Of a stretch of DNA of 36,572 nt, positions 1-36,572 are shown one piece after another. Position 1 is the stretch's first letter, and every line of letters begins with the position of its first letter. The DNA lies in IMG/VR virus record IMGVR_UViG_3300032322_000747, positions 1-36,572 of that record; one strand, 5' to 3'. Position numbers and translations under genes: made by a program. Under the pieces are notes generated by a model. That model worked only from the letters and a program-made list of their open reading frames with translations, searched no databases and was not told the DNA's origin. The stretch comes from a virus.

Positions 1-100
1 AACTGGTCAAACTGGTGATGACGTTAATGAATACATTTTGTCTAGGTCTTGGGACATTACGACTGCATCTTTTTTAGGCGTGTTTAGTGTTGCAAGTCAA
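1..100. repeat. 100-bp terminal direct repeat, left copy
   Basis: Bases 1-100 are identical to 36473-36572. The fibre reading frame runs through unbroken when the copies are merged, which is what a circular or circularly permuted genome gives when assembled as a linear contig. A short true terminal repeat is the less likely alternative. Confidence 0.97.
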
Positions 101-850
101 GATACTGTTCCGCAAGGAATTACATTTAAGCCTGACCTATCTAAGTTTTATATAGTTGGCGCTACCAACGATGCAGTCTTTCAATACTCCACAGGTAATA
201 GCAACATTGATCTAACAGCCAAGACCATTGATATAAATGGAACGACTAATGTCATTGGCCCAATAAACTTTCAAGACCCCGCTGTGTTCGCTGTAAACAA
301 CACAGAGCGTATGCGTATTGATTCTAGCGGTAACTTGCTAGTTGGCATAACATCCGCCAGAGCAAATGCTGGAGATGTACAAGTATCTAAAGGCATTTCA
401 TTCCCAGCCACTCAGTCTGCACAGTCTGACGCAAACACGTTGGATGATTATGAGGAAGGGACTTGGACACCTGTAATTGGCGGTGATGGTGGTGAAAGTG
501 GGCAATCGTACAGTAGACAAGTTGGTACATATACAAAAGTTGGAAATTTAGTTTGTGCGACATTTAGTGTTGTTTTAAGTGCAAAAGGAACAATTACTGG
601 ATTTGCTGTAATTAAAGGTTTGCCGTTTGCTAGTAATTCAACCGCAAATGCTGTTTCTGGGTCATCAATTGGATATTTTGCAAGTTTAGCCGTTAATTCT
701 ACTTGGGTTGGGTTTCAGTTATCAACCAATGCAACTATCTTTTATTTAGAAACAACTACCGCTGCACAAGCCACAGTAACAGATATGACTACAACAAATA
801 TTGGAAACACAACAAGATTTGACGGAACTATTGTTTATAGAACTGCTTAA
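1..850 (+). CDS. Tail fibre, C-terminal part (continues from 34977..36572)
   Basis: This is the distal part of the fibre gene that starts at 34977 and crosses the contig junction. Base 2 starts codon 500 and there is no stop before TAA at 848-850, giving about 781 residues in all. This part finishes propeller-like repeat 4 and holds repeat 5 (VFSVASQDTVPQG...FYIVG...FQY). It then has a segment common in phage fibres (ERMRIDSSGNLLVG) and a C-terminal domain opened by LDDYEEGTWTP, a motif I associate with distal tips of environmental phage fibres. The likely role is receptor recognition. A stem-loop follows the stop codon. Confidence 0.9.
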   Translation, partial: TGQTGDDVNEYILSRSWDITTASFLGVFSVASQDTVPQGITFKPDLSKFYIVGATNDAVFQYSTGNSNIDLTAKTIDINGTTNVIGPINFQDPAVFAVNNTERMRIDSSGNLLVGITSARANAGDVQVSKGISFPATQSAQSDANTLDDYEEGTWTPVIGGDGGESGQSYSRQVGTYTKVGNLVCATFSVVLSAKGTITGFAVIKGLPFASNSTANAVSGSSIGYFASLAVNSTWVGFQLSTNATIFYLETTTAAQATVTDMTTTNIGNTTRFDGTIVYRTA

Positions 851-23469: not shown

Positions 23470-23690
23470 TGACTGTGCGGGGGTTTGATGTAAAGAAAAC
23501 GGCGCAGGCTTGGTTTAAGCAAGCGTCTAATCTGGATAAGGATTACTTTTGGCGCTGCATGAAAAGCCATAAGGAAAACTCTAAACCTAATGGAGAATAT
23601 CCTTATTGTGGTATACACGCTGAAACGTATAAACTAATGGTTAACCACCCTTGGGGTCAGGAGTATCTAAAAATTGTCAAACTTAAATAA
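23469..23690 (+). CDS. Small basic protein
   Basis: A 73-residue protein (DVKKTAQAWFKQASNLDKDY, WRCMKSHKENSKPN, YPYCGIHAETYKLMVNHPWG). Cys/His residues at C29, H33, C46 and H49 could bind a metal. The start shares a base with the upstream stop. It overlaps the methyltransferase start. The function is unknown. Confidence 0.72.
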   Translation: MTVRGFDVKKTAQAWFKQASNLDKDYFWRCMKSHKENSKPNGEYPYCGIHAETYKLMVNHPWGQEYLKIVKLK

Positions 23691-24237
23691 GGTTCTCCCT
23701 CAGATTGCTCCCATGTGTACCGATATGTGGGAACACTTCACCACCCTTAGAGATTACGCACAAGAATGTTCTTCCGTGGTTGAGATGGGGGTAAGAGGCG
23801 GATGCTCTGCCTACGCCTTGGCGGCTGGTTTAGAAGCCAGCCCCTACAAAGGCAAGTGGATGCTCTACTTGGATATTAATGCCTGCCAAAACCCGAAGTT
23901 AGAGGAACTGTGCAAACTTTCTGAGATAAGCATCGAGTTTAAGCAGGCAGACTCTAGGCACGTTGATATACCTACCTGCGACCTTTTGTTTATTGACACC
24001 TTGCATACCTATGGGCAATTGAAGGTGGAATTGGAGTTACACCACTCCAAAGCCAAACAGTACATCATCATGCACGACACCGATGCCCCTTGGGGGTTTA
24101 AGAACGAGGTGGATGATGGCTCACCTGATCGCGGTCTTTGGCCTGCCATAGAGGAGTTTTTAGAGGAACACAAAGACTGGATACTGCATGAGCGCTACCG
24201 TAACTGCCACGGTTTGACTATTTTATTGAGAGCCTAA
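23674..24237 (+). CDS. Class I SAM methyltransferase (Methyltransf_24-like)
   Basis: A 187-residue protein starting at TTG 23674 with AGGAG upstream; ATG 23713 is a shorter alternative. Motif I is VVEMGVRGGCSAYAL, acidic motif II is LYLDINACQN, and the later strand reads TCDLLFIDTLHTYGQLKVEL then QYIIMHDTDAPWG. This is typical of the CmcI/Methyltransf_24 group acting on sugars or small molecules. With the next gene it forms a methyltransferase pair just before the terminase. The substrate is unknown. Confidence 0.85.
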   Translation: MSNLNKVLPQIAPMCTDMWEHFTTLRDYAQECSSVVEMGVRGGCSAYALAAGLEASPYKGKWMLYLDINACQNPKLEELCKLSEISIEFKQADSRHVDIPTCDLLFIDTLHTYGQLKVELELHHSKAKQYIIMHDTDAPWGFKNEVDDGSPDRGLWPAIEEFLEEHKDWILHERYRNCHGLTILLRA

Positions 24238-24785
24238 TGCACGAATCTGCAATAACCAATGCTAGGCGGTTTTTTGACACCTACGCCAAGAACAAAGAAT
24301 CAGGCCGTGTTATTGATATTGGTAGCCAAGACGTAAACGGTAGTCTGCGTTCTGTATGCCCAGAGCGATTTGAATATGTTGGCCTAGACTTTCAAGAAGC
24401 AAATAACGTAGATATTGTTCTTACAGACCCATATCAATTGCCATTTGAAAACCAATCAGTTGATATTGTGGTGTCATCTTCTTGCCTTGAACACTCAGAA
24501 TTCTTTTGGCTGACATGGCTTGAGATTGTCCGGGTAGTCAAACCAGATGGCCTGATTTACATAAACGTACCGTCTGAAGGGCAGCATCATCCATATCCAG
24601 TGGATTGCTGGCGATTTCGATTAGACGCTGCTACTAGCCTAATGAACTGGGCTAACCGCAATGGATACCCAACACGGCTCTTAGAAGCCTATACAGACCA
24701 AGTATGCCCTTGGAAAGATTTTGTGGCTGTCTACGTTGGCGATGAGGCTAATGTGCCTATGTATCTTAAACGGATTGATCTCTAA
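24237..24785 (+). CDS. Class I SAM methyltransferase (Methyltransf_11-like)
   Basis: A 182-residue Rossmann-fold methyltransferase: GRVIDIGSQDVNGS (motif I), FEYVGLDFQEA, LTDPYQLPFENQSVDIVVSS and CLEHSEFFWLTWLEIVRVVK. The last is the SxxEHxxD/E-type signature of Methyltransf_11. PSEGQHHPYPVDCWRF suggests a sugar or lipid substrate as in capsule-modifying enzymes. It overlaps terL by TAATG. DNA modification is less likely because no NPPY or DPPY motif is present. Confidence 0.87.
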   Translation: MHESAITNARRFFDTYAKNKESGRVIDIGSQDVNGSLRSVCPERFEYVGLDFQEANNVDIVLTDPYQLPFENQSVDIVVSSSCLEHSEFFWLTWLEIVRVVKPDGLIYINVPSEGQHHPYPVDCWRFRLDAATSLMNWANRNGYPTRLLEAYTDQVCPWKDFVAVYVGDEANVPMYLKRIDL

Positions 24786-34976: not shown

Positions 34977-36572
34977 ATGGCACTTCCTGTAACTGTACCC
35001 AATACGTTTGCTAATGCCACAACGTCTATCCCGTTGTCGCAACTAGATGCTAACTTTTCTACACTATCTAACGCCATAAACGGTATAAACAGTGGTGCCG
35101 AAACATTAGTCAATCTAAAGGCAAGCAACGTCACAATCACTGGCGGCACAATCAGCAACATCACGCTGGATAACGTCACTGTAGACGTAGAAACTTTGTC
35201 AAATGTGACGATCAATGGCGGCAACGTAACTGTTACCAATATGGTTGCAACCACTGCTAATGCCAATACGATCAATGTTGCTACAATTAACGCTAGAGAT
35301 GGCACGGCTTCTATTAGTTTGGCTAACACTACTGGTATTGCAACACTTAGCAAAGCCACTGTAATTGAAACCACAGACAACACCAATGCCGCACTTCGTA
35401 TTACTCAAACAGGTACTGGTAATGCGTTGCTGGTTGAGGATTCTACTAATCCTGATGGAACACCGTTTTTGATTGACAATTTAGGTGGCGTTGTTAATGG
35501 ATATACAACACCACTTTCGATTGCTTCCTTTACCCCAAGATACCAGCAACACGGTACTTCTGCAAATTTTAGGTCGTTATCTGTTAGTTCTTGGCAAGCA
35601 GGTACAGATGTTGGGGCTGAAATCTTCCTTACTAGAGGCGACAACACAGCAATAGGGGATTACACGCTTATTGGTTCTACTGATGTTTTGGGTAATGTGC
35701 GTTTTTATGGCGCAGATGGAACTCAAATGGTGGAGGCTGCAAAAATTTCTTCAGTAGTTGACGGTGCCCCCGGCGCTAACGATATGCCCGGACGCTTGGT
35801 GTTCAATACAACTGCTGATGGCGCATCAAGCCCGACCGAACGCACTCGCATCTCGGCTAACGGCACACTACAACACCGAAATGATTTAGTAGCCAATAAC
35901 GTAACTGTATTAACAGCATCTTATGATTCTGTTTCGTTTAGTGTTGCTGGGGAAGAATTAACTCCAACATCTATTGCATTTAGCACCGATGGCACAAGAA
36001 TGTATATCTTGGGTGACACAGGAAATGACATTACCCAATATACGTTAACTACCGCTTGGGACATTACAACTGCTGGAAGTCCAACGACATTCTCTGTTAG
36101 CGGGCAAGAAACCAGTCCTTCTGGATTTTATTTTAGACCAAACGGATTGCAATTTTATGTAGTTGGAAGTTTAAATGATACAGTTTATGAATATGCCTGT
36201 TCAACCGCATGGAGCATAGCGACAGCATCTTATTCATCTAAATCATTTAGCGTTTCTAGTCAAGATACCGCTCCAACTGGAATTTTCTTTAAACCAGATG
36301 GCAAAAAAATGTATGTTATTGGTACTACAACAGATACTATTTATGAGTACGATTTAGGCACCGCTTGGGATGTATCAACATCTGTTTATAACAGTATAAG
36401 TTTATCTATTTCAGGACAAGAATCAGGCCCTAATGATTTATTCTTTACTAATGATGGCTATAAATTATTCGTAACTGGTCAAACTGGTGATGACGTTAAT
36501 GAATACATTTTGTCTAGGTCTTGGGACATTACGACTGCATCTTTTTTAGGCGTGTTTAGTGTTGCAAGTCAA
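34977..36572 (+). CDS. Tail fibre, N-terminal part, with propeller-like repeats (continues at base 2)
   Basis: ATG 34977 follows the hub stop codon directly. The N-terminus PLSQLDANFSTLSNAINGI is a common attachment-end motif of phage fibres. Beta-helix-like SNVTITGG and NVTVTNM segments follow, then a domain ending DMPGRLVFNTTADGASSPT. From about residue 319, five units of about 47-50 residues repeat: FSV[AS][GS]Q[ED]..P..[IF].F..DG...Y[VI][IV]G...D...Y, then [ST]AWDI.T. This is a beta-propeller-like (YVTN/lactonase-like) pattern. The last 100 bases duplicate the window start. Confidence 0.92.
   Translation, partial: MALPVTVPNTFANATTSIPLSQLDANFSTLSNAINGINSGAETLVNLKASNVTITGGTISNITLDNVTVDVETLSNVTINGGNVTVTNMVATTANANTINVATINARDGTASISLANTTGIATLSKATVIETTDNTNAALRITQTGTGNALLVEDSTNPDGTPFLIDNLGGVVNGYTTPLSIASFTPRYQQHGTSANFRSLSVSSWQAGTDVGAEIFLTRGDNTAIGDYTLIGSTDVLGNVRFYGADGTQMVEAAKISSVVDGAPGANDMPGRLVFNTTADGASSPTERTRISANGTLQHRNDLVANNVTVLTASYDSVSFSVAGEELTPTSIAFSTDGTRMYILGDTGNDITQYTLTTAWDITTAGSPTTFSVSGQETSPSGFYFRPNGLQFYVVGSLNDTVYEYACSTAWSIATASYSSKSFSVSSQDTAPTGIFFKPDGKKMYVIGTTTDTIYEYDLGTAWDVSTSVYNSISLSISGQESGPNDLFFTNDGYKLFVTGQTGDDVNEYILSRSWDITTASFLGVFSVASQ
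36473..36572. repeat. 100-bp terminal direct repeat, right copy
   Basis: Identical to bases 1-100. The duplication lies in fibre repeats 4 and 5, but only one register keeps the reading frame, which supports an assembly overlap over a real tandem duplication. Confidence 0.97.

Follow-up and report, generated by a model that had tools for sequence, protein, structure and literature searches.

A predicted five-bladed beta-propeller in the middle of a tail fibre encoded across a circular genome junction

Introduction

Phage fibres decide which host gets infected; to our knowledge, most marine and freshwater fibres are without functional annotation. Only a few phage receptor-binding proteins are known to contain propellers (PMC4901313). 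The nearest precedent for the fibre described here is Gp45 of the Staphylococcus phage phi11, which is built of a stem, a five-bladed propeller platform and a tower (PMC4901313; PMC7048315) and whose propeller has 3NOL as its best DALI match (PMC4901313). Two further propellers in (putative) phage receptor-binding proteins are cited in PMC4901313, the distorted five-bladed head of PRD1 P2 and the seven-bladed phiKZ gp131C; they come from unrelated virus groups, are irregular or seven-bladed and, as far as is known, are not sequence-repetitive like the one described here.

Here we analyse a tail fibre gene of the IMG/VR virus record IMGVR_UViG_3300032322_000747; the window is the whole stretch of 36,572 nucleotides, positions 1 to 36,572 of that record. 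Like phi11 Gp45 (and 80alpha gp61), the fibre is predicted to comprise a stem, one five-bladed propeller per chain and a C-terminal domain, and 3nol is also among the top structural matches of our propeller model. Unlike Gp45, which has a coiled-coil stem and a tower and comes from a long-tailed phage of a Gram-positive host, it has an anchor, a beta-rich shaft and a beta-sandwich tip, so that blades, shaft and tip all differ. Gp45 itself was not among the PDB sequence matches or fold matches listed, a result that is compatible with homology. Five-bladed fibre propellers being already known, what is new is the blade family, which has neither a name nor a dedicated model.

Results

Bases 1-100 of the window, when compared with the window itself, are identical to 36473-36572, and the virus record is therefore circular. 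The fibre gene runs through this junction. As had been noticed in a preliminary description of this DNA, the linear contig end splits the gene, its halves being truncated ORFs at the two ends of the record, and the joining suggested there (34977..36472 to 1..850) has the right coordinates and yields one frame of 781 residues. The repeats do continue past the junction, but not over bases 2-200 as proposed, because bases 2-100 duplicate the 3' end and are to be read only once; the fifth blade thus consists of 36534-36572 and 101-202.

34977..36572 (aa 1-532) joined to 101..850 (aa 533-781 and stop), + strand: fibre gene, a single open frame across the junction
36473..36572, no strand: terminal direct repeat of 100 bases, copy of 1-100, the circular junction (identity of both ends)

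Elsewhere in the window, a second tail-like protein (1643-2761) contains near-identical internal repeats (VTNVATGTGLTGGPITSNGTISLANTAVSPDTYGG) and matches tail protein PHROGs, and two adjoining ORFs at 23674-24785, methyltransferase-like by eye, lie just ahead of the terminase gene.

The fibre contains five homologous units at aa 313-566, each of 47-51 residues with a period of 51-52. With a blade HMM whose final training set was composed of relatives only, the units score 57-92 bits (E 1e-19 to 1e-30), whereas shuffling the protein 500 times gave 7.9 bits at best. The five propeller-like repeats first recognized by eye are thus borne out, with a start near aa 313 rather than 319 and a longer period than the 47-50 residues given at first. 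The motif written for them fits approximately: blade 2 reads AWSI, and blade 5 has neither the glycine of the PDG segment nor the WD segment, the latter because it is the closing blade.

35913..36065, + strand: propeller blade 1, aa 313-363 (78.6 bits; AF2 of a homologue); blade 5 is expected to be closed by its first strand
36066..36218, + strand: propeller blade 2, aa 364-414 (59.7 bits)
36222..36374, + strand: propeller blade 3, aa 416-466 (92.3 bits)
36378..36530, + strand: propeller blade 4, aa 468-518 (59.3 bits)
36534..36572 (aa 520-532) joined to 101..202 (aa 533-566), + strand: propeller blade 5, aa 520-566 (56.7 bits for the whole unit)

For the fold, AF2 was run with a 42-row alignment on the propeller of the relative L006, which is 58% identical to that of the window over the best segment. 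The L006 model has 20 strands arranged as 5 x 4, with a pLDDT of ~98 over the blades and a pTM of 0.88. Its top PDB match (VIA-align) is E. coli YjiK (Z 23.1, rmsd 2.7, 228 aligned residues), followed by the glutaminyl cyclases 3mbr, 3nol, 2iwa and 3nok (Z 20-22); all of these are solved five-bladed propellers. The fold is thus shared with the YjiK C-terminal domain and the cyclases at Z 20-23, whereas these are cellular proteins or enzymes rather than fibres, and sequence identity to them is 9-13%. Six-bladed NHL and Pizza6 entries rank below them, and among predicted viral proteins the closest by fold comparison with the L006 model are uncharacterised phage proteins. Neither tachylectins nor VCBS proteins appear among the PDB sequence matches or fold matches listed, which falls short of proof of absence. 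A shaft-like or unrelated predicted fold had been named at the outset as the outcome that would speak against a propeller; the prediction on L006 gave a five-bladed ring instead.

Unit counts in relatives bear on the same question. We counted units in 63 distinct proteins from viral contigs and from bacterial or archaeal genomes; genome contigs were searched with a consensus-like five-blade sequence, so that matches are biased to FKPDGTKM-type blades. Multiples of five were found in 52 of the 63 (33 proteins with 5 units, 10 with 10, five with 15, two with 20 and two with 30), which corresponds to a naive binomial P of 2.5e-26 against one in five, related proteins not being independent. Groups separated by linkers also have five units each (L023, L025, L152, L154, L196), and in the largest arrays a single phage protein holds as many as six rings. 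The exceptions inspected, a part of the total, mostly trace to weak units that were missed, to frameshifts or to split blades. For instance, weak units are present in L157 and L171, L150 has 3 + 2 units across a stop or frameshift, and L033 consists of four complete units flanked on both sides by a part-unit, which fits ring closure. A clear six units occur in the patescibacterial L151, whose sister proteins with the same flanks have one or two. Five is thus a strong preference without being an absolute law.

Two sets of arrays were observed alongside these counts. The viral contigs L019 (2270-8052) and L030 (2420-7912) carry very long arrays: 20 and 15 units in adjoining ORFs, and 30 within a single ORF. 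In Patescibacteria, L150, L151, L163, L178 and L199 share the same flanks and have 5 (split), 6, at least 3 (at a contig end), 2 and 1 blades; such a series may be read as ongoing blade amplification or as assembly collapse.

It is thus strongly supported, from the AF2 model, the PDB fold matches and the unit counts in fives, that the fibre repeats form a closed five-bladed beta-propeller, as had been suspected. Repeats are frequent in phage fibres, and one might imagine an open, non-closed shaft like the usual repetitive stalk; this is very improbable given that AF2 and the PDB matches give closed five-bladed rings, that phages, bacteria and archaea all show units in fives, separated groups included, and that L033 distributes its units as ring closure needs.

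By sequence, the blades belong to the YVTN/WD40-like superfamily. A comparison with YVTN propellers, advised in the preliminary description, found them YVTN/SGL-like, and their closest solved relative by sequence is 1l0q, a YVTN propeller from a surface-layer protein of archaea (E 2e-7 alone and 5.6e-16 when the profile is used). The latter is seven-bladed, in contrast with closure at five in the fibre blade family. In Pfam, the SGL match is above the cut-off, and the SGL and lactonase matches reflect superfamily resemblance. A dedicated model of the blade family was found in none of Pfam, PHROG and NCBIfam; PHROGs gave almost nothing and NCBIfam generic matches only. Blades also occur as unnamed proteins in cultured phages, such as gp51 of Lentibacter phage ICBM2 (5 units) and gp43 of Roseobacter phage CRP-13 (15 units), and Roseobacter phage CRP-9 likewise has such fibre proteins. 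One phage protein with propeller units (L149:3734-5992, MW202577.1) is annotated as 'putative isomerase ybhE', a name that probably derives from general propeller similarity.

These resemblances raise the question of whether the propeller is an enzyme acting on surface polymers, breaking them down or modifying them as a lyase, hydrolase or cyclotransferase. The nearest folds include glutaminyl cyclases, in Pfam it matches propellers of enzymes (SGL, lactonase, arylesterase), and phage endosialidases carry propellers (PMC4901313). We nevertheless hold this to be improbable: it shares 9-13% sequence identity with these enzymes, and among close relatives variation is greatest in the inner strand and the top loops, the place to expect an active site. 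An enzyme identity drawn from the Pfam matches was itself rejected, since these cover only part of the models and owe their scores to single blades.

The remainder of the protein places the propeller within the fibre.

34977..35291, + strand: N-terminal anchor region, aa 1-105, directly 3' of the upstream tail gene (40-82% identity, 42/42 testable relatives)
35292..35912, + strand: middle part resembling a shaft, aa 106-312 (matches the tail fibre PHROGs 18345 and 9942)
443..847, + strand: C-terminal beta-sandwich tip ('LDDYEEGTWTP' domain), ~aa 647-781 (AF2, Dettilon match)

The identification as a fibre is based on the conserved N-terminus after the upstream tail gene and on the tail fibre PHROGs 18345 and 9942, which match the N-terminal half. 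About 215 residues lie C-terminal of the propeller and end in the beta-sandwich. The AF2 model of this tip has a pLDDT mostly above 90 and matches the C-terminal domain of the Dettilon tailspike (Z 15.2, rmsd 2.5, 127 aligned residues) and, weakly, the receptor-binding heads of other phages. Since it lies between anchor and shaft (aa 1-312) and these C-terminal residues with their tip, the propeller is, judging from the sequence, a mid-fibre platform and not a terminal head. The initial idea of a sugar-binding head in place of the usual shaft thus stands insofar as the domain is predicted to be a propeller and not a shaft fold, but not as to its position, the C-terminus being occupied by a separate beta-sandwich tip.

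Relatives of the virus were collected by major capsid protein (80 loci), and in 42 of these the sequence reaches beyond the upstream tail gene. In all 42 the next gene starts with the same anchor, at 40-82% identity, and a propeller unit was found in none of the 80; in other fibres without a propeller, anchor identity reaches 86%. Residues 106-312 are common to fibres with a propeller (L007, L008, L039) and without one (L050-L053, L061-L066), and the shaft region and propeller also occur on different N-termini, e.g. the collagen-like stalks of L007 and L008. The tip domain is very common in phage fibres, with at least 589 confirmed stretches in otherwise different fibres. Because the anchor is present in 42/42 relatives and the propeller in 0/80, and because shaft and propeller occur on other N-termini and the tip in many fibres, the propeller would most likely have been exchanged into the lineage of this virus as a module.

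Amino-acid differences among close homologues of the propeller amount to 0.42 in the D-A loop, 0.37 in the inner A strand and 0.28 in the B-C loop; in the close set, with the window left out, they are 0.08 in the A-B loop and 0.00 in the C-D loop. In the standard nomenclature the top of a propeller, usually the ligand side, is made by the D-A and B-C loops. Variation biased to one face and the inner strand fits a binding surface, as far as sequence comparison can tell, and much of the conservation of the bottom face may be structural. Positive selection on the binding face was considered and set aside, since dN/dS stayed below 1 in all regions that allowed an estimate.

The same blades were found in bacteria. 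In Pelagibacteraceae (SAR11), commonest and dominant bacteria of the ocean, the relatives L160-L197 have five units followed by an autotransporter beta-barrel. The barrel domain PF03797 was detected in 30 of the 31 proteins scanned, one of the 31 being gammaproteobacterial. N-termini resemble signal peptides in those SAR11 autotransporters that were read, and these proteins are often tandem paralogues, two or three in a row. A literature search returned no useful paper that linked propellers to marine phage fibres or to Pelagibacter autotransporters.

Discussion

We propose, with a probability of about 0.6, that the gene encodes a trimeric fibre of anchor, shaft, five-bladed propeller acting as a receptor-binding platform, and beta-sandwich tip. 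The N-terminal segment would plug the fibre into the tail of a phage that we infer to be probably short-tailed, the shaft would come next, each of three chains would bear one closed propeller, and the tip would end the fibre. By analogy with phi11 Gp45, the propeller is most likely a lateral receptor-binding platform, a reading drawn from the phi11 precedent, from its setting in a fibre and from variation biased to one face. Through its variable side, made up of the inner strand and the D-A and B-C loops, it would touch a structure on the host surface, perhaps a glycan, and the conserved opposite face would pack against the fibre.

The main competitor of this platform makes the propeller a structural spacer or trimer-stabilising element and the C-terminal beta-sandwich the receptor-binding head. 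That assignment would agree with the similarity of the tip to the Dettilon tailspike domain and, weakly, to other phages' heads, and most relatives of the virus live without a propeller. We consider it unlikely, if less so than an enzyme, in that a tip shared by so many differing fibres fits a generic trimerisation or tip module, and the propeller varies on one face.

Tentatively, and with less confidence than in the platform itself, the blades may constitute a mobile five-bladed propeller family, a general prokaryotic surface-recognition module occurring in phages as single rings or arrays of up to six and in SAR11 as an autotransporter passenger. For annotation, the 51-residue repeat is a handle on many 'hypothetical' fibre proteins, those of cultured phages included, and the strong preference for fives seen across phages, bacteria and archaea is a natural test of what fixes blade number even as blades duplicate. 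The SAR11 autotransporters may be more interesting biology than the fibre, even though they lie outside the window. The same ring in these proteins suggests a shared recognition module in the ocean's commonest bacteria; if the blades are such a general module, infecting phage and infected host would both rely on it for recognition.
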